Program-made: the position numbers and the translations under genes | Notes under the pieces: model-generated | Told to the model about the DNA's origin: nothing | The model's database searches: none | What the model saw: only the letters and a program-made list of their open reading frames with translations | Shown here: positions 4,592-46,103 of the stretch, piece by piece | Position numbering within the stretch: position 1 is the first letter of the stretch | Layout of the letters: every line of letters starts with the position of its first letter | NCBI RefSeq assembly: GCF_007097205.2 | Contig: NZ_VJYK02000006.1 | Coordinates: 1 to 46,103, forward strand | Direction: 5' to 3' | Source of the DNA: Streptomyces alkaliterrae | GTDB taxonomy: Bacteria; Actinomycetota; Actinomycetes; Streptomycetales; Streptomycetaceae | Length of the DNA stretch: 46,103 bases

Positions 4592-4681
4592 CCGGTCGCC
4601 ACCCCGCAGCCCCCCGTCCACGCAGCCATCCGCCCCCGCAGCGACGAACAGAGCCCGCGCACCGGAGTGAGGAAGTAGAAC

Positions 4682-11535: not shown

Positions 11536-11649
11536 CGCTCACCATAACCGCGTCTTCTGCCCGCGTCGGCAGTATTTATTGGACTAATCCGGATGGTCGG
11601 CCGATGATCGCATGAGTCGCCGAACAGGCGAGTCAATGGGAGGAGTGGC

Positions 11650-15448: not shown

Positions 15449-15456
15449 GACCACGT

Positions 15457-16512: not shown

Positions 16513-16540
16513 CGGCACCGGGCCGAGCCGAGGACATGAC

Positions 16541-20065: not shown

Positions 20066-20109
20066 GCGGCACTCCGCCACGCACCCGCTGCCCCGACGAA
20101 CGGACGGCC

Positions 20110-21882
20110 ATGAGTAGTGATCACCCCAGGCTCGGACGCGAGCCGCTGCCCCTGCCCGCCATCCTGGCCCGACATGCGGAACAGACCCCGGACGCCGTCG
20201 CCTACGTCCATCTCCGTGACGGCGAGGAGATCGGCGAACAGGCCACCTACGCCGAGCTGTCCGCCGACGTCCGCACCCGCGCCGCCGCCCTCGCCGGGCT
20301 CGCCGCCGGCCGGCGCAGCGCGGTGCTGGTGTACCCCAACGGCCTGGAGTTCATCCGGGCCTGGCTGGCCTGCACCGCGACCGGGATCAAGGGAGCGCCC
20401 CTCCAGGTGCCGAGCCGCCGGCAGGCCGTGCGGCGGCTGCGGACCGTCGCCGACGACGCGCGCACCACACTGGTGCTCACCACCCGCGAGGTACGCGACC
20501 GGGTACTCGACGACTTCGCCGGGCTGCCGGAGCTGGACGGGCTGGAGTTCGTCGCGACCGACGGACTCCGGCCCCCGGCCGCCGGGACCGCGTCGCCCGA
20601 GCCGGCCCTGTCCGACGTCGCCCTGCTCCAGTACACCTCGGGCTCGACCGGTGATCCCAAGGGCGTCATGGTCACACACGCCAACTTCTGGGCGAACGCG
20701 TCGGAGATGGACGAGCTGTGGCCGTTCGCCGAGGACGGGTCCGTTGTCTCCTGGCTGCCGTTCTTCCACGACATGGGGCTGCTGCTGGGGGTGGTGCTCC
20801 CGCTGTGGGCCGGCCGGCCGGCGTACCTCATGGGCCCCGAGGCCTTCGTCCGCCGTCCGGCCCGCTGGCTGGAGGCCCTGTCCCGCTTCGGCGGCACCCA
20901 CGCCGCGGCCCCGAACTTCGCGTACGACCTGTGCGTCCGGGCGGACGGTCCGCGTGGTCCGCTCGACCTGTCGCGCTGGCGGGTGGCCATCAACGGGGCG
21001 GAGCCGGTGCGAGCGCACACGGTCGCGGAGTTCACCGGCAAGTTCGCGCCGCACGGCTTCGACCCCAAGGCGATGTGCCCGGGGTACGGACTCGCCGAGT
21101 ACACCCTGAAGATCAGCGGCAGCCCCTCGGACGTCGAACCCGGGCCCCTTGTCGTGGACGCGCACGCGCTCGGCTCCGGCAGGGTCGTGCGGGTCACCGA
21201 CGACGCCGACGGAGCCCCCGGCACGGCCACCGTCATGAGCTGCGGCCACACGGTCGCCGACGCCCGCGTGCGCGTCGTGGACCCCCGCACGCTCAGGGCC
21301 GTCGGGGACGACGAGGTCGGCGAGATCTGGGCGTCCGGCCCCTGCGTGGCCGCCGGCTACCTCGGACGTGAGGAGGAGAGCGAGCGGACCTTCCGCGCGC
21401 GCATCGTCGACGAGGAGGACGAGGGACCGTTCCTGCGCACCGGGGACATGGGCTTCGTGCGGGGCGGCGAGGTGTTCGTCACCGGACGTCTCAAGGACCT
21501 GATCATCGTCAAGGGGCGCAACCACTACCCCCAGGACCTGGAGCACACGGTCGAGAACAGCCACCCCCTGCTCCGCCCCGCCTCCTCCGCGGCCTTCGCC
21601 GTGGACGACGGCGAGCGGGAGGCCGTTGTCGTGGTGGTCGAGGGGGACCGGCGGATTCTCACCTACGCCAGTGCGGACGAGGTGACCGCGGCGGTACGCG
21701 GGGCGCTGCTCGAACACCACCGGATCGAGGTGGCCGACGTCGTGCTGATCCGCCGGGGAACGCTGCCGAAGACCACAAGCGGCAAGGTCCGCCGCCGGTC
21801 CTGCGCCCAGCGGTACGCGAGCGGGGACCTCGCCCGACTCGGTGAGCCGCGCCCGGCCGCCGGGAGCTTTGCGGCGACCTGA
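20110..21882 (+). CDS. Fatty acyl-AMP ligase (FAAL)
   Basis: Activates a fatty acid as acyl-AMP and loads it on an ACP without a CoA intermediate. The 590-residue protein has the ANL P-loop LLQYTSGSTGDPKGVMVTH and the FAAL-typical WLPFFHDMGL, GLAEYTLKISG, FLRTGDMGF and GRLKDLIIVKGRNHYPQDLE, ending with LPKTTSGKVRRR. The HDMGL and GRNHYPQD signatures separate FAALs from CoA ligases. ATG start 44 nt after the KS-AT-CCR gene; last gene of this operon. Together with the CCR-like domain it suggests that a fatty acyl chain is built into the product, for example an alkyl side chain. The chain length cannot be read from sequence. Confidence 0.88.
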   Translation: MSSDHPRLGREPLPLPAILARHAEQTPDAVAYVHLRDGEEIGEQATYAELSADVRTRAAALAGLAAGRRSAVLVYPNGLEFIRAWLACTATGIKGAPLQVPSRRQAVRRLRTVADDARTTLVLTTREVRDRVLDDFAGLPELDGLEFVATDGLRPPAAGTASPEPALSDVALLQYTSGSTGDPKGVMVTHANFWANASEMDELWPFAEDGSVVSWLPFFHDMGLLLGVVLPLWAGRPAYLMGPEAFVRRPARWLEALSRFGGTHAAAPNFAYDLCVRADGPRGPLDLSRWRVAINGAEPVRAHTVAEFTGKFAPHGFDPKAMCPGYGLAEYTLKISGSPSDVEPGPLVVDAHALGSGRVVRVTDDADGAPGTATVMSCGHTVADARVRVVDPRTLRAVGDDEVGEIWASGPCVAAGYLGREEESERTFRARIVDEEDEGPFLRTGDMGFVRGGEVFVTGRLKDLIIVKGRNHYPQDLEHTVENSHPLLRPASSAAFAVDDGEREAVVVVVEGDRRILTYASADEVTAAVRGALLEHHRIEVADVVLIRRGTLPKTTSGKVRRRSCAQRYASGDLARLGEPRPAAGSFAAT

Positions 21883-29697: not shown

Positions 29698-31347
29698 ATG
29701 GGATCTCGCGTGACCACAGCTGCTCCTCCCAAGGCCGGGAGGCGGGAGTGGATCGGACTGGCCGTCCTCGCCCTGCCCACCCTGCTCCTGTCCATGGACC
29801 TGAGCGTCCTGTACCTCGCGGTTCCGCAACTGAGCGCGGACCTGCGGCCGAGCAGCGCCCAACTGCTCTGGATCATGGACATCTACGGATTCCTGATGGC
29901 CGGTTTCCTGGTCATGATGGGAACCCTCGGCGACCGCATCGGCCGCCGTCGGCTGCTGCTGATCGGTGCCGCCGCCTTCGGCGCCGCCTCGGCGCTCGCG
30001 GCCTTCTCGACCAGCGCCGAGATGCTGATCGCCACCCGCGCCCTGCTCGGCATCGCCGGCGCCACGCTCGCGCCCAGCACCCTGGCGCTGCTCCGCACCA
30101 TGTTCCACGACCCCAAGCAGCGCACCGCCGCCATCGGTGTGTGGACCGTGTGCTTCTCGGCGGGAAGCGTGTTGGGCCCGCTGGCCGGCGGTGCTCTCCT
30201 CGCGTACTTCTGGTGGGGATCGGTCTTCCTGATCGGCATTCCGGTCATGCTGCTCCTGCTGGTGGCCGGACCGGTCCTGCTGCCGGAGCACCGGAACACC
30301 TCGGCGGGCCGGGTCGACCTCCTGAGCGCCGCCATGTCCGTGGTGGCCGTCCTCGGTGTCATCTACGGCATGAAGGACGTCGCCGCACACGGGCTCGGCC
30401 CGACCGGTGTCCTCGCCGTCGTCGGAGGGCTCGCGGTGGGGGCCCTGTTCGTCTACCGGCAGAAGCGGCTGGCCGATCCGCTGCTCGACCTCGGCCTGTT
30501 CTCCACCCCGCGCTTCGGTCCGGCGCTCGGGATCATGGGACTCGCCGTCCTGGTGATGTCCGGCACCCTCTTCTTCGTCGCCCAGTACCTCCAGCTCGTG
30601 CGCGGCCTGACGCCGCTGCGAGCCGGGCTGTGGATGATGCCGATGGCCTTGGGCGTGGTGGTCGGTGCCGCGGTGACGGCACAGGTCATCCGCAAGGTCC
30701 GTCAGCCGGTTGTCATGGGAGCCGGCCTGCTCGTCTCCTGCGGTGCCTTCTTCCTCCTCTCCCGAATGGAGACCGACTCCCCGATCGTGCTGTTCGTCGC
30801 CGGGGTCTTCTGCATGTCCTTCGGTGTCGCCCCGGTGATGATCCTCGGTCTGGAACTGGCCGTCGGGTCGGCCCCGCCGGAGCGTGCGGGCGCGGCGTCG
30901 AGTGTCGCCGAGACGGTTCAGGAGTTCGCCCTGGGCCTCGGGGTCGCCGCGATCGGCAGTATCGGGACCGCGGTATACCGAAGCGAGGTGGAAGGCGCGC
31001 TCCCGCCGGGAGTGCCCGCGGACGCCGCCCGCGACGCCCAGGACACACTCGGCGGCGCGGTGAACGCCGCGGAGGAGCTGTCCGGTGGGGCGGGGGAGGC
31101 GCTGCTCGAGGTGACGCGGGCAGCGTTCACCCAGGGACTGCAGACCGCCGCCACCATCTGCGCCGTCCTGGTGGCCGTCGGCGCCCTGGTCACGCTGACC
31201 GTCCTACGGGGCATCGGCGGGCCGCGACCGGCGGCGACGGAGAAGACGCCCGAGGAGCCGGACCGACCGGCGGAGTCCGGGCCGGAGGAACCCACCCCCG
31301 TCCACGCCGGCCGGGAGGACGGCTACCCGGCGGAACGCCGCGAGTGA
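29698..31347 (+). CDS. MFS drug exporter, DHA2-type (14 transmembrane segments)
   Basis: Membrane transporter of 549 residues with about 14 hydrophobic helices. It shows the MFS loop GTLGDRIGRRRLLLIG after helix 2 and the motif-C-like GSVLGPLAGGALL in helix 5. The C-terminal 35-40 residues are a hydrophilic Pro/Glu-rich tail. It is similar to actinorhodin-type and other proton-driven antibiotic exporters. It is in the same transcript as the ABM gene under the SoxR-like box, so export of the redox-active metabolite and self-resistance are the inferred roles. The start is ATG; a GTG 12 nt later is an alternative, and neither has a strong Shine-Dalgarno. Confidence 0.9.
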   Translation: MGSRVTTAAPPKAGRREWIGLAVLALPTLLLSMDLSVLYLAVPQLSADLRPSSAQLLWIMDIYGFLMAGFLVMMGTLGDRIGRRRLLLIGAAAFGAASALAAFSTSAEMLIATRALLGIAGATLAPSTLALLRTMFHDPKQRTAAIGVWTVCFSAGSVLGPLAGGALLAYFWWGSVFLIGIPVMLLLLVAGPVLLPEHRNTSAGRVDLLSAAMSVVAVLGVIYGMKDVAAHGLGPTGVLAVVGGLAVGALFVYRQKRLADPLLDLGLFSTPRFGPALGIMGLAVLVMSGTLFFVAQYLQLVRGLTPLRAGLWMMPMALGVVVGAAVTAQVIRKVRQPVVMGAGLLVSCGAFFLLSRMETDSPIVLFVAGVFCMSFGVAPVMILGLELAVGSAPPERAGAASSVAETVQEFALGLGVAAIGSIGTAVYRSEVEGALPPGVPADAARDAQDTLGGAVNAAEELSGGAGEALLEVTRAAFTQGLQTAATICAVLVAVGALVTLTVLRGIGGPRPAATEKTPEEPDRPAESGPEEPTPVHAGREDGYPAERRE

Positions 31348-32228: not shown

Positions 32229-33005
32229 ATGAACCGGACTTCCAGCTGTGTCTTAGAGCCCCGTATAACCGCTTCCCGTAACCCGGGGGGACGCCCGGTG
32301 GAACCGGCGGGGGCGGTGCGCCCCTCGCTCGGTGGGCCCGGCGGGTCGGGCTGGCGGGTCCTGGTCGTCGAGAGTGACGTCGACGACGCCGAGCCGCTCG
32401 TCAGCGGGCTGCGCCGGCACGGCCACGAGGTCGAGACGATCACCAGCGGGCGCGCGGCCCTCGAGGCGTACGAGGACGCCGACCTCGTCCTGTTGGATCT
32501 CGAACTGCCCGACCTGGACGGCCTCGAGGTCTGCCGGGCCATCCGCACGGCCTGCGACGTCCCCATCATCGCGGTCACCGCTCGGGGTACCGAACTCGAC
32601 CGGGTGCTGGGCCTGCAGGCCGGGGCCGACGACTACCTGACCAAGCCCTACGGCTTCCGGGAGCTGATGGCCCGGGTCGAGGCGGTCATGCGTCGGGCGC
32701 GTCCGCAGGCGTCGCCGCCCAGCGTCATCAACCACGGGCCCCTGCTCATCGACACCGCCTCGCGTGAGGTGACCCTGGAGGGGCGGCGGATACCGATGAC
32801 CCGCAAGGAGTTCGACCTGCTGTGCCTCCTCGCGGCCAATCCCGACACCGTCATCCCCCGCAAGCGGCTGATGCAGCAGATCTGGGGAGACTCCTGGTCC
32901 CGTAGAACCGTCGACACGCATGTCAGCACCCTGCGCAACAAGCTCGGTGCGAGCAGCTGGGTCATCACCGTTCGAGGTGTCGGCTTCCGTCTCGGCCACG
33001 GATAA
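32229..33005 (+). CDS. Orphan OmpR-family response regulator, JadR1-like pathway activator
   Basis: Regulator of 258 residues. A Pro/Gly-rich extension (about 41 residues) precedes a receiver domain (42-155) and an OmpR winged-helix domain (about 165-258: RKEFDLLCLLAANPDTVIPRKRLMQQIWGD, then VDTHVSTLRNKLG). The receiver keeps Asp90 in LLDLELPD, Thr in AVTARG and Lys in TKPYGF. The acidic pocket reads ESD (48-50) where canonical regulators have two adjacent acids, so phosphorylation may be non-canonical as in JadR1. No histidine kinase is nearby. Codon 9 (32253-32255) is TTA, predicting bldA dependence. The ATG lies five bases after GGGGGA. JadR1-type regulators activate angucycline clusters; this one abuts the type II PKS genes. 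Confidence 0.9.
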   Translation: MNRTSSCVLEPRITASRNPGGRPVEPAGAVRPSLGGPGGSGWRVLVVESDVDDAEPLVSGLRRHGHEVETITSGRAALEAYEDADLVLLDLELPDLDGLEVCRAIRTACDVPIIAVTARGTELDRVLGLQAGADDYLTKPYGFRELMARVEAVMRRARPQASPPSVINHGPLLIDTASREVTLEGRRIPMTRKEFDLLCLLAANPDTVIPRKRLMQQIWGDSWSRRTVDTHVSTLRNKLGASSWVITVRGVGFRLGHG

Positions 33006-33320: not shown

Positions 33321-35654
33321 TCAGGCGGCGCGGCGGGCGATCACGAACCGGGGGTGGCCCTCGCGGTCCGTGTGGCTGGTGACCGCCTCGAAACCGGCCG
33401 CGCGCACGATCTCGATCACCGCGTCGGCCAGGGCGTCGTAGTGCTCGATGGCCAGCACGCCGCCTCCCGTGAGGAGTCGGGCCGCGGTGGCGGCCACCGA
33501 CCGCACCGCGTCCAGCCCGTCCCAGCCGGAGCGGATGGCGCCGGCGGGCTGGTGCGTCGCCAACTCCGGGATCAGGTGGACGTGGTCGGGAACGTTCGGC
33601 GGAGCCGCGGTGACCAGATCGACCGTGCCGTCGAGGCCGGACAGCAGATCCGGGGCGGCGATGTCGCCCCGGACGAAGTCGAGCTCCGCTTCGACGCGGT
33701 CCTTCAGGCCCTCGGCGTTGCGCTTGGCCCAGTCGAGCGCCGTGGCGCAGACGTCCACTCCGGTGACCACCGCCGCCGGGCGCAGCGCGCCGACGGCCAG
33801 CGCGACCGCTCCGGAACCGGTGTAGAGGTCGACGACCCGCGGGTGGTCGGAGCCGCAGCGGGCAAGCGCCTCGGTGACCATGGCCTCGGTCCGGGTGTGC
33901 GGGACGCGTACACCGGCGCCGACCGCCAGCTCCAGATCGAACAGCCGGGCTCGACCGGTCAGGTACTCCAGCGGCTCGCGTCCGGCGCGGCGACCCACCA
34001 GCATCCAGAAGCCCTGCGCGTCCTCGGCGCTCATCGGAGCGTCGAGGTCCGGGTCCTCCCCGGGCAGTACGTGGGCGGCCAGCGTCAGCGCGTCGGCGCG
34101 CGGCGTCGTCACCCGTGTCGCTGTGAGGAGTTCGGCCGCGCGGCGCACGTGGTCGCCGACCGAGTCGGCCGCCGGCGGGCCTGGCTTGCCGAACCTGGCC
34201 CGGCAGTTGTCGTAGTACGTCTTCAGCCACAGGGCGATCTGAGGCTCCATCCGGGCAGCCGCGAGCAGGTCGGGCTGCGGGGTGAAGTCCGGGTCGAGCT
34301 CCTCGGCCCACTGCGCGTAGATGGGCTTGAGGCCCACGTCGAAGAACTCCTGCCAGCCGGTCGGCACGTTCCAGTGCTGCTCGTAGCCGGTGGCCAGGGT
34401 GTGCTCGACGGTGGTGTCGAGAACGGCCTCCCGCGACATGCCGCCCAGGGGCGCCCGCTCCGGGGCGAACGGCTCGAGGTCCAGCTCCGGCTCGCCGCCG
34501 AGCATCCGCGCCGCGAACTCCTTGGCGAGCAGGGGCGAGAGGAAGAGCCCGTCGCGGTAGGTGCCGGTCATCATCCAGAGCCCCCTGAGCGGGGTCTCGC
34601 CGAGCAGCGGGAAGCCGTCGAGGGAGATGGGCCGGTTGCCCACGTTGATGCCGCTGACCGCGCTGCTCCACAGGTTGCGCCGGGTCTGCCGGTGGGCGCA
34701 TTCGAGCAGGAACAGCAGATCGCCCATCACCGGGTCGGCCATCGGCTGCGGAGTGATGATGTTGGTCGCGCCGACGTACACACGGCCCGCGCCTCGCGGC
34801 ACGATGTGCAGGCCGCACGCGAAGGCCCGGTTCGGTGTCCGGATCACCGACTCGGGCTGCGTCCCGTCCTGGGTGGTGACCACGGCGGAGACGCCGTAGC
34901 CGGCCACCAGCCGGGGGATGCAGTCGCCGAGCCCAGGCACCGAGTCGACCAGGGTCTGGGTGCCCACGCCGCCCGCGAGCAGGACCTGTCCGGAGGTCAG
35001 GGACGTGCCGTCCTCGAGTACGACGCCGCGGGACTGGCCGTCGTCGCCCAGCACGGAGGCGGCGTGGCCGTCGATCAGGGTGACGCCGAGGTCCCGTGCC
35101 GTCTGCTCCAGCCTGAGCAGCAGCCTGCCGGAGTCCACGGCGTGCTCCCCGGGGATGTGCAGCGCCTGGAGGGGGCGGCTGTTGGGATCGGGGTCGAGCC
35201 AGCCGACGTCCGACGGGTCGACCGTCTCGTACGGCTCGTCGTGCTTCTCAAGCGTCGCTCGGATCGCGTGGAAGTTGTCGGTGTCGATGCCCGCGGTACC
35301 GACGCTGTTGAGGAGGACCGTCGTGCCGTTCGCGGTGAGGATGTCACGTCCGTCCGACAGCCCGCCCGAGATGCTCTCCAGCCATTCGGGCCACAGGTCC
35401 TTGGCCCGGAGGTCGAGAGCGAACTTGGTCTGCCCGTAGGTGTTCTCCACCAGGGTGGTGGTCACCTCGCCGAAGCAGCCGAGCATCGCGCCGGCCGCCG
35501 TCGAGGCCGCGTACGGGCGGTGTCGGGGGCCGACCAGCGCCACCGAGGCGCCGCGGCGGGCGAGCTCGACGGCGGCCGAGGAGCCGAGCGCGCCGTTGCC
35601 CACGACGATGACGTCGTACCCGGTCGGCCTGCCGTGTTCCGAGACATGTGTCAC
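33321..35654 (-). CDS. Fusion: DAO-type FAD oxidoreductase with a PrmC/HemK-like methyltransferase
   Basis: The 777-residue protein has two unrelated domains. Residues about 10-420 are a DAO-family flavoenzyme: DVIVVGNGALGSSAAVELARRG (FAD GxGxxG), a substrate half, and a C-terminal FAD segment around WMMTGTYRDGLFLSPLLA. Residues about 525-777 resemble PrmC/HemK glutamine methyltransferases: a helical start (TPRADALTLAAHVL), RAGREPLEYLTGRARLF, VPHTRTEAMV and the SAM motif VDLYTGSGAVALAVG. The catalytic NPPY is changed to APPN, so release-factor methylation is unlikely. A linker of about 100 residues joins them. The GTG start follows AGGAG; upstream codons in frame lack support. Divergent from the PKS genes. 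Substrate unknown; it may oxidise and methylate a nitrogen- or oxygen-bearing intermediate. Confidence 0.8.
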   Translation of the reverse strand: MTHVSEHGRPTGYDVIVVGNGALGSSAAVELARRGASVALVGPRHRPYAASTAAGAMLGCFGEVTTTLVENTYGQTKFALDLRAKDLWPEWLESISGGLSDGRDILTANGTTVLLNSVGTAGIDTDNFHAIRATLEKHDEPYETVDPSDVGWLDPDPNSRPLQALHIPGEHAVDSGRLLLRLEQTARDLGVTLIDGHAASVLGDDGQSRGVVLEDGTSLTSGQVLLAGGVGTQTLVDSVPGLGDCIPRLVAGYGVSAVVTTQDGTQPESVIRTPNRAFACGLHIVPRGAGRVYVGATNIITPQPMADPVMGDLLFLLECAHRQTRRNLWSSAVSGINVGNRPISLDGFPLLGETPLRGLWMMTGTYRDGLFLSPLLAKEFAARMLGGEPELDLEPFAPERAPLGGMSREAVLDTTVEHTLATGYEQHWNVPTGWQEFFDVGLKPIYAQWAEELDPDFTPQPDLLAAARMEPQIALWLKTYYDNCRARFGKPGPPAADSVGDHVRRAAELLTATRVTTPRADALTLAAHVLPGEDPDLDAPMSAEDAQGFWMLVGRRAGREPLEYLTGRARLFDLELAVGAGVRVPHTRTEAMVTEALARCGSDHPRVVDLYTGSGAVALAVGALRPAAVVTGVDVCATALDWAKRNAEGLKDRVEAELDFVRGDIAAPDLLSGLDGTVDLVTAAPPNVPDHVHLIPELATHQPAGAIRSGWDGLDAVRSVAATAARLLTGGGVLAIEHYDALADAVIEIVRAAGFEAVTSHTDREGHPRFVIARRAA

Positions 35655-36094
35655 AGGGAGAACTCCTAGAGTGGGTAAAGCCGTTGCCGAAGGCGCGGTG
35701 GCCGACATCGTGGGCATGAGAATTCCCGTTCGTCCAATAGGTTTGCCGACTGGCGGTCAGAAGGAATCCTTATGCGGGCGTCCCGGAGAGAGGGGCCAAC
35801 CGGTGTGCAGCGGGTGCCACTCGGCGAGTTGGCAATCCCGTGGAGTGTTTCCGACGTTCTCCTGAAGTTTCTCGGAGAGCCGCGCACAGTACCTGTCGAA
35901 CCCTGACCTCCGCCTGGCCGGAAGGCACTTGAAGAGCGGCTGGGAGTAGACGAGGCTCTTGGGGAACGGTCCAGCTGATTGCGGGATTCCCTTTCCCGTG
36001 CTTCCCCGGAGCCTCCGTCATTCGACAGGCGACGTCATTCATCCGGGCACCGCGCGCGGCATCACCGAGAAAACCTGTTGTGGAGGAGAGACGC
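35655..36094. promoter_or_regulatory. Divergent promoter region before the type II PKS operon
   Basis: This 440-bp gap between the divergent fusion gene and the cyclase has lower GC content than its flanks and several short T- and A-rich runs. I see no gene with a good ribosome binding site and no long palindrome. It must carry promoters for both directions and is the natural target for the JadR1-like regulator. No -35/-10 pair is clear enough to place. Confidence 0.5.
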
Positions 36095-36421
36095 ATGCAC
36101 AGCACTTTGATCGTGGCTCGGATGGACCCCGACGCGAGCGTCGACGTGGCGAAACTCTTCGCGGAGTTCGACGCCGGCGACATGCCGCATCGCATGGGTA
36201 CTCGGCGACGCCAACTGTTCTCGTACCGGGGCCTCTACTTCCACCTTCAGGACTTCGACTCGGACAACGGCGGCGAACTCATCGAGGAGGCGAAGTCCGA
36301 CCCGCGGTTCGTCCGGATAAGCGACGACCTCAAGCCGTTCATCCAGGCGTACGACCCGGCGACCTGGCGCTCGCCCGCGGACGCCATGGCGAACCGCTTC
36401 TACCACTGGGAGTCGGCGTGA
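36095..36421 (+). CDS. Angucycline-type polyketide cyclase (TcmI/JadI/UrdF family)
   Basis: Small dimeric ferredoxin-fold cyclase of 108 residues that closes late rings of the type II polyketide. Features include [21 protein letters not shown] at the start, [24 protein letters not shown] in the middle, and the C-terminal [17 protein letters not shown] typical of this family. The ATG start has GGAGGAGAG. The stop overlaps the KS-alpha GTG (GTGA). First gene of the core operon; the cyclase / KS-alpha / CLF / ACP / KR / aromatase order matches urdamycin, landomycin and jadomycin clusters. Confidence 0.92.
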
Positions 36422-37689
36422 CCGAGCGACGGGTTGTCATCACGGGCATGGAGGTCCTGGCACCCGGCGGAGTCGGCACCGAGAGCTTCTGGAACCTCCT
36501 GAGCGAGGGGCGGACCGCGACGCGCGGCATCACCTTCTTCGACCCCTCGCCGTTCCGCTCCCGGGTGGCCGCGGAGATCGACTTCGTCCCCGAGAAGCAC
36601 GGGCTGAGCCCGCAGGAGGTCCGGCGCATGGACCGCGCCGCCCAGTTCGCGGTGGTCGCGGCGCGCGGCGCGGTCGCCGACAGCGGCATCGAACTCGAGG
36701 GGTACGACCCGTACCGGGTGGGTGTCACCGTCGGCAGCGCCGTCGGCGCCACGATGGGTCTCGACGAGGAATACCGGGTGGTCAGCGACGGCGGCCGGCT
36801 GGACCTCGTGGACCACAGGTACGCCGTCCCGCACCTCTACAACTACCTCGTCCCCAGCTCCTTCGCCGTCGAGGTGGCCTGGGCGGTCGGCGCGCAGGGG
36901 CCGAGCACGGTGGTGTCCACGGGCTGCACCTCGGGGATCGACTCGGTCGGCCACGCGGTGGAGCTGATCCGGGAGGGCTCCGCCGACGTGATGGTCGCGG
37001 GCTCCTCGGACGCCCCCATCTCGCCGATCACCATGGCCTGCTTCGACGCGATCAAGGCGACCACGCCGCGGCACGACGAACCGGACCGCGCCTCCCGCCC
37101 GTTCGACGGCACGCGCAACGGCTTCGTCCTGGGCGAGGGTGCGGCGGTCTTCGTCCTGGAGGAGTTGGACGCCGCCCGCCGGAGAGGGGCGCACATCTAC
37201 GCGGAGGTCGCCGGGTACGCCACGCGCAGCAACGCGTACCACATGACCGGGCTGCGACCGGACGGCGTGGAGATGGCCGAGGCCATCCGGGTCGCGCTGG
37301 ACGAGGCGCGGATGGACCCCGAGGAGATCGACTACATCAACGCCCACGGCTCGGGCACCAAGCAGAACGACCGGCACGAGACAGCCGCCTTCAAACGGAG
37401 CCTGGGCCGGCACGCCTACCGGACCCCGGTCAGCTCGATCAAGTCGATGGTGGGGCACTCGCTGGGCGCCATCGGCTCCATCGAGATCGCGGCCTCGGCG
37501 CTCGCCATGGAACACAACGTGGTCCCGCCCACCGCGAACCTGCGGACGCCCGACCCCGAATGCGACCTCGACTACGTCCCGTTGACGGCCCGCGACCAGC
37601 TCACCGACGCGGTGCTCTCGGTCGGCAGCGGCTTCGGCGGCTTCCAGAGCGCCATGGTGCTCGCCCGACCCGAGAGGAGTGCGGCATGA
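36418..37689 (+). CDS. Type II PKS ketosynthase alpha (KS-alpha)
   Basis: Minimal-PKS condensing enzyme of 423 residues that elongates the poly-beta-keto chain on the ACP with CLF. The nucleophile is Cys170 in [11 protein letters not shown]; the histidines lie in [14 protein letters not shown] and [14 protein letters not shown]. It begins [18 protein letters not shown], using a GTG that overlaps the cyclase stop. The end overlaps the CLF start (ATGA), so the heterodimer partners are translationally coupled. Overall pattern is typical of aromatic polyketide synthases. Confidence 0.97.
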
Positions 37690-38900
37690 GTACGAGGGTG
37701 GTGGTGACCGGCCTCGGCGTGGTGTCCCCCAACGGGTTGGGCACCGAGGACTTCTGGGCGGCGACCAGGAGCGGGAAGAGCGGCATCGGCCGCATCACCC
37801 GGTTCGACCCGTCCCGCTATCCGGCGCGGCTCGCCGGCGAGATCCCCGGCTTCGTCGCCGAGGAGCATCTGCCCAACCGCCTGCTGCCGCAGACCGACCG
37901 GATGACGCGGCTCGCGCTGGTGGCGACCGACTGGGCGCTCGCCGACGCGGGCATGGTGCCCGAGGACCTGCCCGCTTTCGACATGGGCGTGGTGACGGCC
38001 AGCCATTCCGGCGGTTTCGAGTTCGGCCAGAACGAGCTGCGGAAGCTGTGGAGCCTGGGCAGCCGGCATGTCAGCGCGTACCAGTCGTTCGCCTGGTTCT
38101 ACGCCGTCAACAGCGGCCAGATCTCCATCCGCAACGGGATGAAGGGGCCCAGCGGCGTTGTCGTCAGCGACCAGGCCGGTGGACTGGACGCGGTGGCGCA
38201 GGCCAGGCGGCAGATCCGCAGGGGAACGGCGCTGATCGTGTCCGGGGCGGTGGACGCCTCCATCTGCCCGTGGGGCTGGGTGGCCCAGCTCGCGGGGGAT
38301 CGGCTGAGCACCAGCGAGGAACCCACCCGGGCCTACCTGCCCTTCGACGGCGAAGCGCGCGGCCACGTGCCCGGTGAGGGCGGGGCGATCCTCATCCTCG
38401 AGTCCGAGGAGGCGGCCCGGGTGCGCGGCGCGAGGATCCACGGCGAGATAGCCGGCTACGGAGCGACCATCGACCCGCCGCCGGGCAGCGGTGGCGAGGC
38501 CGGACTGCGCAGAGCGCTGGAGACAGCCCTGGCCGACGCCGGGGTGCGGCCCGAGGAGGTCGACGTGGTGTTCGCGGACGCCGCCGCGATCCCCGAACTG
38601 GACCGCACGGAGGCCGACGCCCTCAACACCGTCTTCGGCCGGGGCGCCGTCCCGGTCACCGCGCCGAAGACCATGACCGGGCGCCTCTACTCGGGGGCCG
38701 CGCCGCTGGACCTCGCCGCTGCCTTCCTCGCCATGGCGGACGGCCTCATCCCGCCCACGGTCAACACCGAACCGCTGCCCGAGTACGGCCTCGATCTCGT
38801 CGGCCCCCAGCCGCGACCCGCCGAAGTGCGTACGGCGGTGGTACTCGCCCGGGGCCAGGGCGGCTTCAACTCCGCGGTGGTCGTGCGCGCCCCGCGCTAG
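37686..38900 (+). CDS. Type II PKS chain-length factor (KS-beta/CLF)
   Basis: Catalytically inactive partner of KS-alpha, 404 residues, which helps fix chain length and chain initiation by malonyl-ACP decarboxylation. The active-site cysteine is replaced by Gln163 in [11 protein letters not shown], the CLF hallmark. The N-terminus is [18 protein letters not shown]. Expected chain for an angucycline is a decaketide, but that is inferred from context and not from the sequence itself. Translation is coupled to KS-alpha by an ATGA overlap. Confidence 0.96.
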
Positions 38901-38944
38901 GACCTGCCCGGCGGACACATCGAATACGAAGGGATCAACTTCAC

Positions 38945-39214
38945 ATGAGCACCAAGGAATTCACCCTCGACGATCTCAAGCGGATCCTGCGCGACAGCGC
39001 CGGCGCCGACGAGGCGGTCGACCTCGACGGCGACATCCTCGACGCCGGGTTCGAGGAGCTCGGCTACGAGTCGCTCGCCCTCCTGGAGACGGGCGGGCGC
39101 ATCGAGCGGGAGTTCGACATCACCCTCGACGACGACGTGCTGGTCAGCGCCCCCACCCCGCGCACGCTGATCGCGGCCGTCAACAACCTGCTCGGTACGG
39201 ACGTCGCCGTCTGA
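38945..39214 (+). CDS. Type II PKS acyl carrier protein
   Basis: Acidic carrier of 89 residues. The phosphopantetheine serine is Ser43 in ELGYESLALLE; the usual aspartate before the serine is glutamate, as in several aromatic-PKS ACPs. It carries the growing chain for the KS-alpha/CLF pair. ATG start with AGGGATC upstream. A 44-nt gap separates it from CLF. Confidence 0.96.
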   Translation: MSTKEFTLDDLKRILRDSAGADEAVDLDGDILDAGFEELGYESLALLETGGRIEREFDITLDDDVLVSAPTPRTLIAAVNNLLGTDVAV

Positions 39215-39293
39215 CGCGCCACCCCCGTGACCCCCGGGCGCGTCGCCGCGCTCGGCGGGTCGACACGCCCCACACGTGAGGAGAAGAAGGACC

Positions 39294-40079
39294 ATGACAG
39301 AGCAGAACAAGCGCGTCGCCCTTGTGACCGGAGCCACCAGCGGAATCGGCCTGGCCGTCGCCCGGCTCCTCGCGGAACAGGGCCACCGGGTCTTCATCGG
39401 CGCCCGCACCGCCGAGAACGTGGCGACCACGGTCAAGCAGCTCGCCGCCGCGGGCCTGGAGGTCGACGGCGCGGCGGTGGACGTCCGGTCCGCCGAGCAG
39501 ATCAGGGACTTCGTCCAGGCGGCGGTCGACCGCTTCGGGACCATCGACGTCCTCGTCAACAACGCCGGTCGCAGCGGTGGCGGCGTCACCGCCGACCTCG
39601 CCGACGAGCTGTGGGACGACGTCGTCGACACCAACCTGAACAGTGTCTTCCGGATGACCCGCGAGGTGCTGAACACCGGTGGCATGCGGAGCAAGGACCG
39701 CGGCCGGGTCATCAACATCGCCTCCACCGCGGGCAAGCAGGGCGTGGTGCTCGGCGCCCCCTACTCCGCGTCCAAGCACGGCGTCGTCGGCTTCACCAAG
39801 GCCCTCGGCAACGAGCTCGCCCCGACCGGGATCACCGTCAACGCGGTGTGCCCCGGCTACGTCGAGACGCCGATGGCCGAGCGGGTCCGGCAGGGCTACG
39901 CGGCGGCCTACGACACCACCGAGGACGCGGTCCTCGCGAAGTTCCAGGCGAAGATCCCGCTCGGCCGCTACTCCACGCCCGAGGAGGTCGCCGGCCTGGT
40001 CGGCTACCTGGCGTCCGACACCGCCGCGTCCATCACCTCGCAGGCGCTGAACGTCTGCGGCGGCCTCGGCAACTTCTGA
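39294..40079 (+). CDS. Type II PKS ketoreductase (C-9 type)
   Basis: SDR-family reductase of 261 residues that reduces the C-9 carbonyl of the nascent polyketide with NADPH. It has TGATSGIGLAVA (cofactor), NNAGRSGGG, the catalytic serine in NIASTAG, and YSASKHG with the Tyr-Lys pair, then PGYVETPMAERVR, typical of ActIII/UrdD-like enzymes. ATG start after GAGGAGAAGAAGG. It is followed by the aromatase gene 36 nt on. Confidence 0.94.
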   Translation: MTEQNKRVALVTGATSGIGLAVARLLAEQGHRVFIGARTAENVATTVKQLAAAGLEVDGAAVDVRSAEQIRDFVQAAVDRFGTIDVLVNNAGRSGGGVTADLADELWDDVVDTNLNSVFRMTREVLNTGGMRSKDRGRVINIASTAGKQGVVLGAPYSASKHGVVGFTKALGNELAPTGITVNAVCPGYVETPMAERVRQGYAAAYDTTEDAVLAKFQAKIPLGRYSTPEEVAGLVGYLASDTAASITSQALNVCGGLGNF

Positions 40080-40115
40080 CCCACCCGACGTCGACCGAAC
40101 ACCGGAGCAAGTGAC

Positions 40116-41051
40116 ATGACTACCCGCCAGGTCGAGCACGAGATCACCGTCGAGGCCCCGGCCGCCGCCGTCTACCGGCTGATCGCCGAGGTGGAGAACT
40201 GGCCGCGGATCTTCCCGCCCACCATCTACGTCGACCACCTGGAGAGGGGCGACAGGCAGGAGCGGATACGGATCTGGGCCACCGCCAACGGCGAGGCGAA
40301 GAACTGGATCTCCCGCCGCACGCTGGACCCGGAGAACCTGCGGATCACTTTCCGCCAGGAGGTCTCCACACCGCCGGTCGCCGCGATGGGCGGCGCCTGG
40401 ATCGTCGAGCCGCTGTCCGGGAGCACGTCCCGGCTCAGGCTGCTGCACGACTACCGGGCGATCGACGACGATCCCGCCGGACTGAAGTGGATCGACGAGG
40501 CCGTGGACCGCAACTCGCGCTCCGAACTGGCCGCGCTGAAGACGAACGTCGAGTTCGCCGTGGCCTCGGAGGAGATCACCTTCTCCTTCGAGGACTCGGT
40601 GCGGATCGACGGCTCCGTGAAGGACGCCTACGACTTCGTCAACGAGGCCGGGCTGTGGGCGGAGCGGCTGCCGCACGTGGCCTCCGTCCGCTTCGGCGAG
40701 GACACCGACGGCCTGCAGTCCCTGGAGATGGACACCCGCGCCAAGGACGGGTCCACCCACACCACCAAGTCCTACCGGGTGACCTTCCCGCACCACAGGA
40801 TCGCCTACAAGCAGGTCACCCTGCCCGCGCTGATGACCCTGCACACCGGCTACTGGACGTTCGTCGAGGACGGCACCGGCGTGACCGCCTCCTCGCAGCA
40901 CACCGTCGTCCTCAACACGGCCAACATCACGAAGATCCTCGGCGCGGACGCCACGGTCGAGGACGCCCGCTCCTACGTGCGGAACGCGCTCAGCACGAAC
41001 AGCCGTGCCACCCTCGGCCACGCCAAGGACTTCGCCGAGAGCAGGCGTTGA
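40116..41051 (+). CDS. Aromatase/cyclase, two-domain SRPBCC type
   Basis: Didomain aromatase/cyclase of 311 residues. Two START-like halves are visible: residues about 1-150 (VEHEITVEAPAAAVYRLIAEVENWPRIFPPT) and 155-311 (FSFEDSVRIDGSVKDAYDFVNEAGLWAERLPHV). It aromatises the first ring of the C-9-reduced chain, as UrdL/JadD/ActVII-type proteins do. ATG start with GGAGCAAG. The stop (TGA) overlaps a TTG that could also serve as the start of the next gene. Confidence 0.94.
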   Translation: MTTRQVEHEITVEAPAAAVYRLIAEVENWPRIFPPTIYVDHLERGDRQERIRIWATANGEAKNWISRRTLDPENLRITFRQEVSTPPVAAMGGAWIVEPLSGSTSRLRLLHDYRAIDDDPAGLKWIDEAVDRNSRSELAALKTNVEFAVASEEITFSFEDSVRIDGSVKDAYDFVNEAGLWAERLPHVASVRFGEDTDGLQSLEMDTRAKDGSTHTTKSYRVTFPHHRIAYKQVTLPALMTLHTGYWTFVEDGTGVTASSQHTVVLNTANITKILGADATVEDARSYVRNALSTNSRATLGHAKDFAESRR

Positions 41052-41053
41052 CC

Positions 41054-42559
41054 GTGCCCACTCCCGTGCTGGAGACCGAGGTCCTGATCGTCGGAGCGGG
41101 CCCCGTCGGACTGATGCTCGCCGGTGAACTGCGCCTCGGCGGCGCCGAGACGGTCGTCCTGGAACGCCTTGCCGCACCGACCACCGAGTCCAGGGCCTCG
41201 ACGCTGCACGCCCGCACCATGGAACTGCTGGACAGCCGCGGACTGCTGGACGCTCTGGGCACCCCGCCCGACGAGCCCCGGGGGCACTTCGGCGGGGTGC
41301 CGCTCGACCTGCGGCTGCCCAGCCCCTGGCCCGGCCAGTGGAAGGTGCCGCAGACCCGCACGGAGGCACTGCTGCGGGACTGGGCGCTCGGGCTCGGCGC
41401 GGATCTGCGGCGCGGCCACGAGCTGCGGGCGGCGCGCTTCGCCGACGACCACGTCGAGGCGGTGGCGGCCGGGCCCGGGGGCCGGTCGCTGCGGGTACGG
41501 GCACGCTTCGCCGTGGGCTGCGACGGGGAGCACAGCACCCTGCGCCGACTCGTGGGAGCCCCGTTCCCCGGACGCGAGGCGAGCCGGGAACTGCTCCGTG
41601 CGGACGTCGCGGGGATCGACGTACCGAACCGACGCTTCCAGCGGCTGGACCGGGGCCTGGCCATCGCGGCGCGCCGCGCCGACGGGATCACCCGGATCAT
41701 GGTGCACGAGTTCCAGGCCGGCGCCCGGCGCCGCACCGCGGAACCGGAGTTCGCCGAACTCGCGGAAGTCTGGAAGCGGGTCACCGGAGAGACCGTCGAC
41801 CACGGCACCCCGGTGTGGGTGAACTCGTTCGGCGACGCCAACCGGCAGCTCGCGAACTACCGCCACGGCCGGGTGCTGTTCGCCGGCGACGCCGCCCACC
41901 AGCAGATGCCCATCGGCGGCCAGGCACTGAACCTCGGACTGCAGGACGCCGTCAACCTCGGCTGGAAGCTCGCCACCGAGGTCAGCGGACGGGCCTCCGC
42001 GGGGCTCCTGGACACCTACCACGCCGAGCGGCACCCGGTCGGCCGGCGGGTGCTCGCCGACATCAGAGCCCAGGCGCACCTGCTGCTCGGCGGACCCGAG
42101 GTCGAGCCGTTGCGCACACTGCTGGCCGAGCTCATCGACGAGCGGCCCGAGGCCCGTGCGCACCTGGCCGGCATGATCTCGGGCCTCGACATCCGCTACG
42201 GCGCCGACACGGCTCCCGGTGACCCGCTCCTCGGCGCCCGGCTGCCGTACACCGAACTCCAGGGCGTGCACGGCGGAATGAACACACGCGACCTGCTGCG
42301 GACCTCCGGCCGCGGCCTGCTGCTCGACCTCGCCGGCGACGCGGCCCTGCGCACCGCGGTGCGGCCGTGGGCCGACCGCGTGGTCACCGTGACCGCTCGG
42401 CCGGCCCCCGACGGGCCGCTCGGAGCGGCCCGCGCCGTCCTGGTACGGCCGGACGGACACATCGCGTGGACCGGCGCGACCGGTGGGCCGGAAAACGCGC
42501 TGGGCGACTGGTTCGGAAAACCCGAACCCGCGCGCGTCGGCCGCTCTGACAAGAATTGA
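41054..42559 (+). CDS. FAD-dependent aromatic oxygenase (PgaE/UrdE type)
   Basis: Class A flavoprotein monooxygenase of 501 residues that hydroxylates the angucyclinone core. The FAD motifs are VLIVGAGPVGLMLAGELRLGGAETVVLE, the DG motif GCDGEHSTLRRLVG and GRVLFAGDAAHQQMPIGGQALNLGLQDAVNLGWKLA; a thioredoxin-like C-terminal domain follows (residues about 400-500). GTG start chosen; a TTG six nucleotides upstream overlaps the aromatase stop. The second oxygenase at 44629 is a paralogue (both contain GPxGLMLAGELRLGGA). Members of this family do 12- and 12b-hydroxylation or ring-opening steps; the exact site here is unknown. Confidence 0.92.
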   Translation: MPTPVLETEVLIVGAGPVGLMLAGELRLGGAETVVLERLAAPTTESRASTLHARTMELLDSRGLLDALGTPPDEPRGHFGGVPLDLRLPSPWPGQWKVPQTRTEALLRDWALGLGADLRRGHELRAARFADDHVEAVAAGPGGRSLRVRARFAVGCDGEHSTLRRLVGAPFPGREASRELLRADVAGIDVPNRRFQRLDRGLAIAARRADGITRIMVHEFQAGARRRTAEPEFAELAEVWKRVTGETVDHGTPVWVNSFGDANRQLANYRHGRVLFAGDAAHQQMPIGGQALNLGLQDAVNLGWKLATEVSGRASAGLLDTYHAERHPVGRRVLADIRAQAHLLLGGPEVEPLRTLLAELIDERPEARAHLAGMISGLDIRYGADTAPGDPLLGARLPYTELQGVHGGMNTRDLLRTSGRGLLLDLAGDAALRTAVRPWADRVVTVTARPAPDGPLGAARAVLVRPDGHIAWTGATGGPENALGDWFGKPEPARVGRSDKN

Positions 42560-42664
42560 CATCGCTCTGACCTGACGGCCCTTGAATCCGTCAAGTAGGC
42601 CGAGAAAGCTGGTCATTGGTCTTCTCGACCACGACCCAGCAGATAATGCCTGGAGGCAGGGACC
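42560..42664 (+). promoter_or_regulatory. Probable promoter/leader of the deoxysugar genes
   Basis: This 105-bp gap is AT-richer than its flanks. It holds TTGACA at 42556-42561, the short palindrome CTTGA-ATCCG-TCAAG near 42581-42595 and a -10-like GATAAT at 42642-42647. No -35/-10 pair has ideal spacing, so the start point is uncertain. GGAGGCAGGG is the ribosome binding site for the next gene. Confidence 0.45.
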
Positions 42665-43534
42665 GTGAAAGGGATCATTCTGGCCGGTGGCCACGGAACA
42701 AGGCTGCAGCCGATCACTCTGGGAATGTCCAAGCAGCTGCTCCCGGTATACGACAAGCCAATGATCTACTACCCGCTCTCGGTGCTGATGCTCGCGGGCG
42801 TGACCGATATCCAGATCATCTCCTCCCCGCGCGATCTGGAGGGTTTCCGGCGGCTGCTGGGAGACGGTTCGGATTACGGGCTGCGGCTGACCTATGCGGA
42901 ACAGGAAGAACCGCGCGGGCTCGCCGACGCCTTTCTCATCGGGGCCGACCACATCGGTGACGACCCGGTGGCGCTGGTACTCGGTGACAACATCTTCCAC
43001 GGCCCCGGATTCAGCGCCCTGCTCCAGGAAGCCGTGACGGACGTCGACGGCTGCGTGCTGTTCGGCTACCCGGTGCGCGATCCCGAACGGTACGGAGTCG
43101 GCGAACTGGACGACGAGGGCAGGCTGGTCTCCCTGGAGGAGAAGCCGGCCCGACCCAGGTCGAACCTCGCCATCACCGGGCTCTACTTCTACGACAACGA
43201 CGTGGTCGACATCGCGAAGAACCTGCGTCCCTCACCGCGCGGCGAACTCGAGATCACCGACGTGAACCGGATCTACCTGGAGCGCGGCAAGGCGGAACTC
43301 GTGTCCCTGGGAAGGGGCTTCGCCTGGCTCGACACCGGAACGCACGACGCGCTGACCGAGGCGGGCCAGTACGTGCAGATCCTGGAACACCGGCAGGGCG
43401 TCCGCATCGCCTGCATCGAGGAGATCGCCTGGCGTATGGGATTCATCGACCGCGAGGCCTGCCACCGGCTCGGGAAGCGGCTCGCGAACTCCTCGTACGG
43501 CCGATACGTCATGGAGATCGCCGCGACCGGCTGA
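42665..43534 (+). CDS. rmlA: Glucose-1-phosphate thymidylyltransferase
   Basis: Makes dTDP-glucose from glucose-1-phosphate and dTTP, the first deoxysugar step. The 289-residue product has the full RmlA signature: GIILAGGHGTRLQPITLGMSKQLLPVYDKPMIYYPLSVLM, then VLGDNIFHG, EEKPARPRSN, YFYDNDVVDIAKNLRPSPRGELEITD and the WLDTGTHDAL segment. GTG start after GGAGGCAGGG. The dTDP-glucose 4,6-dehydratase follows 33 nt later. A cluster-borne copy supports glycosylation of the angucycline by the UrdGT2-like enzyme at 27146. Confidence 0.96.
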   Translation: MKGIILAGGHGTRLQPITLGMSKQLLPVYDKPMIYYPLSVLMLAGVTDIQIISSPRDLEGFRRLLGDGSDYGLRLTYAEQEEPRGLADAFLIGADHIGDDPVALVLGDNIFHGPGFSALLQEAVTDVDGCVLFGYPVRDPERYGVGELDDEGRLVSLEEKPARPRSNLAITGLYFYDNDVVDIAKNLRPSPRGELEITDVNRIYLERGKAELVSLGRGFAWLDTGTHDALTEAGQYVQILEHRQGVRIACIEEIAWRMGFIDREACHRLGKRLANSSYGRYVMEIAATG

Positions 43535-43567
43535 CCGGCCCGTCGCTCGTCCAGTTCGGAGCGTGTC

Positions 43568-44557
43568 ATGAGAATCCTGGTGACCGGCGGCGCCGGCTTC
43601 ATCGGCTCGCACTACGTGCGAGCACTGCTGGAGGGGCGGTACGAGTCGACGCGGAACGTCGACGTCACCGTCCTGGACAAACTCACCTACGCGGGCAACC
43701 GCGCCAACCTGCCCGCCGCGCACCCGCGCATGACCTTCGTCCACGGCGACATCTGCGACCGGGCGCTGCTGCACGAACTCCTGCCGGGACACGACGCCGT
43801 GGTGCACTTCGCCGCGGAGTCCCACGTCGACCGGTCGGTCGCGGGAGCCGCGGAGTTCGTCCGGACCAACACCCTCGGCACCCAGGCCGTGCTCGACGCC
43901 GCCCTGGCCGCGGGCGTGGCGCGCGTCGTGCACGTGTCCACGGACGAGGTGTACGGCTCGATCGAGGACGGCTCCTGGACCGAGGACTGGCCGCTGCTGC
44001 CCAACTCGCCGTACGCCGCGTCCAAGGCCGGGTCCGACCTCGTCGCCCGCTCCTACTGGCGCACCCACGGCCTCGACGTCTCCGTCACACGCTGCTCGAA
44101 CAACTACGGCCCCTACCAGCATCCCGAGAAGCTCATCCCGCTGTTCGTCACCAACCTGCTGCGCGGCGTCCCGGTACCCGTCTACGGCGACGGGCTGAAC
44201 CGGCGCGAGTGGGTGCACGTCGACGACCACTGCCGAGCCGTCCACCTGGTGCTGCTGCGCGGCGGACCCGGCGAGATCTACAACGTGGGCGGCGGCAGCG
44301 AGCTGACCAACCTGGAGGTGACCGAGCGGATCCTCGAACTCTGCGGCGCCGACCGCTCGATGGTCAGGCACGTCACCGACCGCAAGGGGCACGACCTGCG
44401 CTACTCCCTCGACGACGCCAAGATCCGCGAAACGCTCGGCTGGGCGCCGCGGACGGGCTTCGAGGACGGACTCGCGGCGACGGTCGCCTGGTACCGGGAC
44501 AACCCGAGCTGGTGGCGGCCCGTCCGGGACGCCGCACCGGCCGCCGTCACCGCGTGA
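43568..44557 (+). CDS. rmlB: dTDP-glucose 4,6-dehydratase
   Basis: Converts dTDP-glucose to dTDP-4-keto-6-deoxyglucose, the branch point to 2,6-dideoxy sugars. Extended SDR of 329 residues with ILVTGGAGFIGSHYVRALL, FAAESHVDRSV, VSTDEVYGS (catalytic Asp/Glu) and YAASKAGSDLVARSY (Tyr-Lys), then RCSNNYGPYQHPEKLIPLF. ATG start after GGAGCG. It pairs with rmlA; later enzymes (2,3-dehydratase, 3-ketoreductase) are expected beyond the right end of the window. Confidence 0.96.
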   Translation: MRILVTGGAGFIGSHYVRALLEGRYESTRNVDVTVLDKLTYAGNRANLPAAHPRMTFVHGDICDRALLHELLPGHDAVVHFAAESHVDRSVAGAAEFVRTNTLGTQAVLDAALAAGVARVVHVSTDEVYGSIEDGSWTEDWPLLPNSPYAASKAGSDLVARSYWRTHGLDVSVTRCSNNYGPYQHPEKLIPLFVTNLLRGVPVPVYGDGLNRREWVHVDDHCRAVHLVLLRGGPGEIYNVGGGSELTNLEVTERILELCGADRSMVRHVTDRKGHDLRYSLDDAKIRETLGWAPRTGFEDGLAATVAWYRDNPSWWRPVRDAAPAAVTA

Positions 44558-44628
44558 GGACCACGGACGGGCGCGGCCACGCACGGCGAACCGCGCCGGA
44601 CCACCAACACAGACAGGAGGGGACGTTC

Positions 44629-46103
44629 GTGGACACGGACGTGATAGTCGTCGGGGCCGGGCCCACCGGACTGATGCTCGCCGGTGAGCTGCGCCTGGGC
44701 GGGGCGCGGGTGATCGTGACCGAACTGCTCGAAGCGCCCACCGGGCAGTCACGGGGACTGGGATTCACCGCCCGCGCCATGGAGACCTTCGACCAACGCG
44801 GCCTGCTGCCCCGGTTCGGCGACCTGGAGACCAGCCCGCTCGGCCACTTCGGCGGCGTCCAGTTCGACTACACCGCGCTCGAGGACGCCCACTTCGGAGC
44901 CCGGGGGATACCCCAGTCGCAGACCGAGGCCGTCCTCGAACAGTGGGCCACCGAACTGGGCGCCGACATACGCCGCGGCTGGGAACTGCGCGACCTGACC
45001 GACCACGGCGACGGCGTCCGGGTCACCCTCGCCACCCCCGAAGGCGAGAAGCACCTCACCGCCGCCTACCTCGTCGGCTGCGACGGCGGCCACAGCGCCG
45101 TCCGCAGGGCCGCCGGCTTCGACTTCCCGGGCACCCCCGCCACCCGGGGCATGTACCTCGCCGACGTCGTCGGCTGCGGCCTCAAGCCCCGCTTCCTCGG
45201 CGAGAAGCTGCCCAACGGCATGGTGATGGCGGCCCCGCTCGGCGAGGGCGTGGACCGGATCATCGTCTGCCCGCACGGCACCCCGGCCCGCGACCGCGAC
45301 CAGGCCGTCACCTTCGAGGAGGTCGCCGAGGCCTGGCGGCACATCACGGGAGAGGACATCTCGCACGGCCGCGCCGAGTGGGTCAGCTCCTTCACCGACG
45401 CCACCCGCCATGTCACCGAGTACCGGAGGGGCCGGGTGCTGCTCGCCGGCGACGCCGCCCACATCCACCTCCCGGCCGGCGGCCAGGGGCTGAGCACCGG
45501 CGTACAGGACGCGGCCAACCTCGGGTGGAAGCTGGCCGCCGAGGTGACCGGCCGGGCGCCGGAGGGCCTGCTCGACACCTACCACGCCGAGCGGCACCCG
45601 GTCGGCGCGCGGCTGCTGAGCAACACCCGCGCCCAGGGCCTGGTGTTCCTCGGCGGGGAGGAAGCCGACCCGCTCCGGGAGCTGTTCACCGAACTCCTCA
45701 CCCATGACGGAGTCCGGCGGCACCTCGCGGGCTCGGTGAGCCACCTCGACATCCACTACCCCCTCCCCGGCGGCGACCACCCCCTGCTCGGCCGCCGCCT
45801 GCCGCCCCGCGCCCTGCGCACCGCGGAAGGAGCCACCACCACGACCGCGCTGCTGCGCCACGGACACGGCGTACTGCTCGACCTCGCCGACGACGCCGAC
45901 CTCCGCCGGACCGCCGAGCGGTGGAAGGACCGGGTGGTCGCGGTGACGGCGTCCGCGGACCCCGCCGACACCCGCACCGACCCGTTCACCGGCACGGCCG
46001 CCGTCCTCGTGCGGCCCGACGGCTACGTCGCCTGGACCTCGACCGACGACCAGCCCGTCACGGACGCACTCGAGCGCTGGTTCGGGCCGGCCGCGCAGAG
46101 CCC
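44629..46103 (+). CDS. Second FAD-dependent aromatic oxygenase, cut by the window end
   Basis: An open frame of 491 codons with no stop before the window ends. The GTG start lies five bases after ACAGGAGGGGA. It encodes VIVVGAGPTGLMLAGELRLGGARVIV (FAD), CDGGHSAVRRAAGF, and GRVLLAGDAAHIHLPAGGQGLSTGVQDAANLGWKLA, then the thioredoxin-like C-terminal domain up to TDALERWFGP. Paralogue of the oxygenase at 41054. In related clusters a second oxygenase may be a stand-alone enzyme (JadH, LanE-like) or the N-terminal part of an oxygenase-reductase fusion (PgaM, UrdM, LanV-type). The frame is still open where stand-alone members usually end, so a fusion is possible but undecided. Confidence 0.9.
   Translation, partial: MDTDVIVVGAGPTGLMLAGELRLGGARVIVTELLEAPTGQSRGLGFTARAMETFDQRGLLPRFGDLETSPLGHFGGVQFDYTALEDAHFGARGIPQSQTEAVLEQWATELGADIRRGWELRDLTDHGDGVRVTLATPEGEKHLTAAYLVGCDGGHSAVRRAAGFDFPGTPATRGMYLADVVGCGLKPRFLGEKLPNGMVMAAPLGEGVDRIIVCPHGTPARDRDQAVTFEEVAEAWRHITGEDISHGRAEWVSSFTDATRHVTEYRRGRVLLAGDAAHIHLPAGGQGLSTGVQDAANLGWKLAAEVTGRAPEGLLDTYHAERHPVGARLLSNTRAQGLVFLGGEEADPLRELFTELLTHDGVRRHLAGSVSHLDIHYPLPGGDHPLLGRRLPPRALRTAEGATTTTALLRHGHGVLLDLADDADLRRTAERWKDRVVAVTASADPADTRTDPFTGTAAVLVRPDGYVAWTSTDDQPVTDALERWFGPAAQS

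Follow-up and report, generated by a model that had tools for sequence, protein, structure and literature searches.

A flavin (DAO) domain and a PrmC/HemK-fold methyltransferase (MTase) are fused in one chain encoded within a 46,103-nucleotide stretch of Streptomyces alkaliterrae DNA (from now on the window). The fusion is confirmed as real, and the likely role of the protein, as judged from its sequence and structural model, would be N-formimidoylation of an amine together with methylation by the diverged second domain. Computed directly were homology, fold and catalytic residues, the recurrence of fusion and adjacency, and the contexts of the clusters; the activities, the order in which they act and the acceptor are what we infer. 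The components of the fusion are of known kinds, their combination is apparently undescribed, and no description of a DAO-MTase fusion was found in the literature searched.

Results

The gene and its recurrence

Analysis of the reverse strand revealed a continuous open frame at 33321..35717 with 0 internal stops and a GC3 of 0.92 across the frame of the fused gene, typical of a high-GC3 coding bias. The start codon at 35654 was accepted since this GTG has an AGGAG ribosome-binding site just before it and since homologues are 776–780 aa long, with which the 777 aa of the window protein agree (Table 1). Pfam identified DAO (E 3e-39), PrmC_N and class I methyltransferase domains, and Pfam and NCBIfam both place DAO N-terminally and the PrmC-type methyltransferase C-terminally; the NCBIfam scores were below the equivalog cut-offs for ThiO (TIGR02352, 127.6 bits, cut-off 250.8) as well as PrmC (TIGR03534, 163.8 bits, cut-off 199.1). 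An earlier note, made from the letters alone, had proposed a single 777-residue chain with these two parts, which is supported here; its placement of the gene near phz genes, with a type II PKS operon running divergently from it, also holds.

Full-length fused homologues were found in 11 other genomes or contigs, some of the G-coded genomes possibly being the same species as named ones. At 66–78% identity these are G124 (the nearest, 78%), Streptomyces spp. HNM0574 and WZ.A104, G622, G724, G583, Nocardiopsis kunsanensis, N. xinjiangensis and Saccharopolyspora kobensis, and a second fused type is present at 49% identity in S. gelaticus and Streptomyces sp. ISL-96. Because fused homologues recur in this many genomes, a merger of two genes by sequencing or assembly, which the earlier note had left as an alternative, is ruled out. 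In phylogenetic trees two separate fusions were seen, each close to unfused adjacent gene pairs, and on this reading of the trees DAO and MTase genes that stood next to each other became fused on at least two occasions. In Lentzea the DAO and MTase genes overlap, stop over start.

Table 1. Features of the fused gene and of its surroundings in the window
Feature	Position	Strand	Basis or remark
Phenazine core: class II DAHP synthase, phzD, phzE, phzF, phzG	33..5329	+	
Stand-alone amino-acid adenylation enzyme beside phzG	5395..7002	+	TIGR01733 369 bits, cut-off 317
Streptophenazine-like side-chain genes	8989..21882	+	
MFS exporter	29710..31347	+	
JadR1-like response regulator	32316..33005	+	
Fused DAO-MTase gene, 777 aa	33321..35654	-	GTG start with AGGAG
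PrmC/HemK-fold methyltransferase domain, residues 497-776	33327..34166	-	Model; TIGR03534 163.8 bits
APPN, residues 684-687, at NPPY catalytic-loop position	33594..33605	-	Alignment
SAM-binding motif DLYTGSGA, residues 609-616, kept	33807..33830	-	Alignment
DAO domain with Orf1-type C-terminal helical extension, residues 1-489	34188..35654	-	PDB sequence match; model fit
E425 (Orf1 E426, required to form NOS)	34380..34382	-	Alignment; role PMC10156733
R367 (Orf1 R368, glycine site)	34554..34556	-	Alignment; role PMC10156733
R341 (Orf1 R342, glycine site)	34632..34634	-	Alignment; role PMC10156733
C280 (Orf1 C281, cysteine carrying the glycine-imine N-O-S adduct)	34815..34817	-	Alignment; role PMC10156733
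Mayamycin-like angucycline operon	36095..46101	+	Gene order vs mry

The flavin domain resembles an amidine synthase

The best PDB sequence match of the flavin domain was Orf1 of BD-12 ('N-formimidoyl fortimicin A synthase', E 4e-126), compared with E 1e-15 for the best glycine oxidase. When the AlphaFold model of the fused protein (mean pLDDT 85) was fitted to Orf1 (7xqa), a Z of 51.5 was obtained over 474 residues (rmsd 1.9, 45% identity), the fit spanning residues 15–489 and including a helical C-terminal extension of ~100 residues, while glycine oxidase 4ysh gave Z 39.9 over 361 residues and ThiO Z 37.2. In Orf1, glycine is oxidised at the FAD, held on C281 as an N-O-S (NOS) adduct and passed to an amine as an N-formimidoyl or N-iminoacetyl group, C281 and E426 being essential for the transfer and R342 for the oxidation of glycine (PMC10156733).

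The window protein shares with Orf1 the FAD domain, the helical extension, the NOS cysteine and glutamate, the glycine-site arginines and F316; its T297, N298 and F315 match Orf1 residues probed by mutation or structure. It differs in being fused to a methyltransferase and in having Gly at the Orf1 acceptor positions E312 and E434 (the identity of E312 is taken from PMC10156733, as the aligned Orf1 chain is the E312A mutant); several Orf1 acceptor residues are not conserved. Since the catalytic residues are kept and these acceptor positions changed, Orf1-like chemistry on another acceptor is likely. The contexts differ as well, streptothricin for Orf1 of BD-12 and phenazine/polyketide or 4-aminophenylalanine (PAPA) type for the fused relatives. 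Altogether, the flavin domain very probably makes a glycine-derived amidine. The earlier description of it as glycine-oxidase-like holds for a FAD domain using glycine but misses the match to a group-transferring enzyme with a NOS cysteine; that a nitrogen-containing group is tailored, as was also proposed, is very likely.

Several other arrangements of related DAO genes were observed. Tandem DAO gene pairs are present in Kribbella, Kibdelosporangium and Actinosynnema (L043, L046, L054, L057), with Ser or Ala replacing the NOS cysteine in the second copy. A conserved Streptomyces cluster (L004, L063-L068), present also on an S. finlayi plasmid, combines a stand-alone Orf1-like DAO with RidA, truncated hemoglobin, NRPS, GMC oxidoreductase and methyltransferase genes, and on an Agrobacterium plasmid (L005) an anthranilate-synthase-like gene and a flavin monooxygenase lie close to a 40% DAO homologue.

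The methyltransferase domain and its catalytic loop

The second domain has the PrmC-type two-domain fold, the model matching PrmC (2b3t) with Z 30.1 over 270 residues (rmsd 2.5, 27% identity). Like the PrmC/HemK (glutamine-N5) methyltransferases it combines a PrmC N-terminal part with a class I MTase fold and has the SAM motif; it differs from them in its score below the equivalog cut-off and in the replacement of NPPY by APPN. A separate, standard PrmC-like gene is found in the same genome (L002).

In PrmC-type enzymes the Asn of NPPY is important for the methylation of an amide or amine. An altered loop was found solely in the two copies from phenazine/polyketide clusters (APPN in the window, VPPN in G124), both of which have lost the Asn as well as the Tyr; the other fused copies examined have NPPY, and all relatives outside phenazine clusters have NPPY or NPPF. 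The APPN reported earlier is accordingly present, but as a hallmark of the fusion it is ruled out. For the MTase domain, comparison of the window with G124 gives a dN/dS of 0.34, inside the range of other pairs, and the confidence of the AlphaFold model is low at residues 688–711, directly after APPN. With the changed loop, these two copies may act on a different target (perhaps O or another N) or be less active; the new substrate that the earlier note read from APPN is possible, but methyl transfer may also have been lost. On balance we lean towards an active methyltransferase in the window copy.

Relatives in 4-aminophenylalanine-type clusters

A search for other fusions and their cluster types, as the earlier note had suggested, gave mostly PAPA-type contexts in addition to the phenazine cluster of G124. 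Aminodeoxychorismate (ADC) synthase is encoded in 14/14 of the non-phenazine loci examined in which DAO and MTase occur together, as one gene or as neighbours, and most of these loci also harbour a chorismate mutase, a prephenate-dehydrogenase-like gene and an aminotransferase. The acceptor pathway in most relatives therefore appears, by gene content, to be of the PAPA type. Cassettes of the PapA/B/C type (as for pristinamycin and chloramphenicol), which form the context of nearly all DAO-MTase relatives, are absent from the window, and no PAPA genes were found in the stretches examined of the window and G124. Four loci (L037, L038, L039, L055) have DAO without MTase and much the same gene set, and one PAPA-type cassette (L138, G177) has the MTase and no DAO in the stretch examined. 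Since DAO-only and MTase-only loci share the gene set, DAO and MTase are separable, both acting around one scaffold. Literature searches on formamidine together with aminophenylalanine, and on PapM and pristinamycin, found little or nothing.

Two further proteins were seen in such clusters. In S. adustus (L040:9302-10558) the PrmC-like MTase has a C-terminal extension resembling chorismate mutase (by eye, from the alignment), another fusion within the same pathway. A protein of ~1000 aa with a beta-propeller (PD40) and an amidohydrolase part (L029:12421-15507 and relatives) is conserved next to DAO-MTase in many PAPA-type clusters.

The gene neighbourhood in the window

The window has counterparts of both the streptophenazine (spz/spn) and the mayamycin (may/mry) clusters, which adjoin as they do according to the literature in CNB-091, LCY30 and CS-7; in the published texts consulted on these clusters, no DAO-MTase gene is described. 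The side-chain genes comprise a LuxE/LuxC-like pair, ACP, KS, TE, AKR, KS-AT-ER and FAAL, and the angucycline operon a cyclase, KSa, KSb, ACP, KR, ARO, two FAD oxygenases and two dTDP-sugar genes. The glycosyltransferase search gave no mayamycin cluster closer than 59% identity. The fused gene is flanked on one side by the JadR1-like regulator and on the other by the angucycline operon, from which it diverges, and an MFS homologue adjoins most fused DAO-MTase genes. By gene order only, the adenylation enzyme beside phzG is a candidate counterpart of Spz15; its specificity residues, compared with a PheA reference, gave no recognised glycine code. Cytochrome bd oxidase genes lie within the phenazine cluster (window 22920-25191) and also in that of G062, possibly for self-protection.

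In G124 the fused gene is co-directional within a phz/PKS cluster with an MFS gene at its end and DUF2397-2399 genes behind it, and no angucycline, type II PKS or amino-sugar genes were recognised among the annotated neighbours in the stretches examined. Given this setting of the G124 copy, the fused gene was assigned to the phenazine side, which it probably serves rather than the angucycline cluster; an allegiance to the angucycline, as first suggested, is not the best reading. The fusion is accessory and dispensable for a streptophenazine-like scaffold, as G062, which has a streptophenazine-like cluster, gave no match to it at E 1e-60. The DUF2397/2398/2399 genes directly after the G124 phenazine cluster (L061:14396-17361 and L084:1665-2963) are Wadjet-like defence genes.

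Discussion

We favour, with some reserve, a bifunctional tailoring enzyme in which Orf1-like amidine formation and a fused SAM methyltransferase act on the same substrate. Glycine would be oxidised at the FAD site of the flavin domain and parked on C280 as an N-O-S adduct, which the amine of the substrate would attack to give an N-formimidoyl (formamidine) or N-iminoacetyl group, and the PrmC-fold domain would methylate the same substrate, either at the amine or at the new amidine. For the window and G124 the acceptor pathway would be phenazine/polyketide; it includes a free-standing amino-acid adenylation enzyme, which may form an aminoacyl ester as acceptor in streptophenazine strains. That a streptophenazine esterified with an aminoacyl (glycyl) group offers its amine as acceptor is a tentative proposal and rather unlikely. 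N-formylglycyl esters of streptophenazines, dependent on Spz15, have been reported (PMC9150181), and N-formylglycyl compounds were found in CNB-091; as a speculation, hydrolysis of an N-formimidoylglycyl ester could yield these N-formylglycyl esters. A complete single-chain formamidine factory, with N-formimidoylation from the NOS adduct, methylation of the resulting amidine, a loop repurposed from NPPY to [AV]PPN in the phenazine branch and N-formylglycyl groups as hydrolysed formamidines, seems improbable to us. An amidine is an isostere of the Gln amide methylated by PrmC.

Other explanations concern each of the two domains. The FAD domain could be an ordinary ThiO-like glycine oxidase fused to a methyltransferase, yielding only glyoxylate, imine or H2O2 and perhaps releasing an amine in the manner of the oxidase CmiS2; it belongs to the DAO Pfam family, shares the fold and the glycine-site arginines with ThiO/glycine oxidase and CmiS2, and matches the glycine oxidase, ThiO and CmiS2 folds at Z about 37–40. 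These enzymes are, however, without the NOS Cys/Glu and the helical extension and match the window protein much more weakly than Orf1 does, by sequence as well as by fold; in the ThiO-like oxidase of the S. alkaliterrae genome the NOS-cysteine column holds Arg and no residue aligns to E426, and the ThiO score of the window protein stays below its cut-off. A plain glycine oxidase is thus disfavoured and we regard it as very improbable. For the MTase domain of the window and G124, a catalytically dead structural remnant, with amidine formation alone being of importance, is doubtful but deserves consideration: the loss of Asn and Tyr from both phenazine copies and the low model confidence after the loop point towards it, against which stand the intact SAM motif, a constraint like that of other pairs, and the derived Asn common to both copies, which a change of function fits equally well. 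In the ancestral clusters the MTase could instead be a PapM-type N-methyltransferase of the 4-aminophenylalanine arylamine, independent of any amidine. The cassette of G177 with MTase and without DAO in the stretch examined, together with the chorismate-mutase-like extension in S. adustus, makes this plausible, while the lack of PAPA genes in the window and G124 stretches examined argues against it, and we hold it to be a reading of some weight that falls short of probable.

As to the cluster served, the fused enzyme could tailor the mayamycin-like angucycline, e.g. by adding an N-formimidoyl group to its amino sugar, much as Orf1 relatives modify aminoglycosides. Its place between regulator and angucycline operon, the angolosamine-type amino sugar of mayamycin as a possible acceptor, and the action of Orf1 on streptothricins are all consistent with this. 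The G124 gene, however, belongs to a phenazine cluster, and no type II PKS or amino-sugar genes were recognised among its annotated neighbours. The published mry cluster has only three genes (mry18-20) between cyclase and C-glycosyltransferase where the window has six, and the main text on mry mentions no DAO or PrmC-like enzyme. We consider the angucycline an unlikely target compared with the phenazine.

Orf1-type NOS chemistry is so far characterised from aminoglycoside-like antibiotics. Clusters with DAO only, with MTase only, with adjacent genes and with the fusion all exist in nature, so that the sequence of the steps is open to testing, and RAFACGLH...LATGYE together with a PrmC-like domain offers a sequence handle for mining amidine tailoring. 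The presence of the Orf1 catalytic residues, on one chain with a methyltransferase, in clusters for aromatic amines and phenazines suggests that glycine-derived amidines may be a wider, unrecognised tailoring group.
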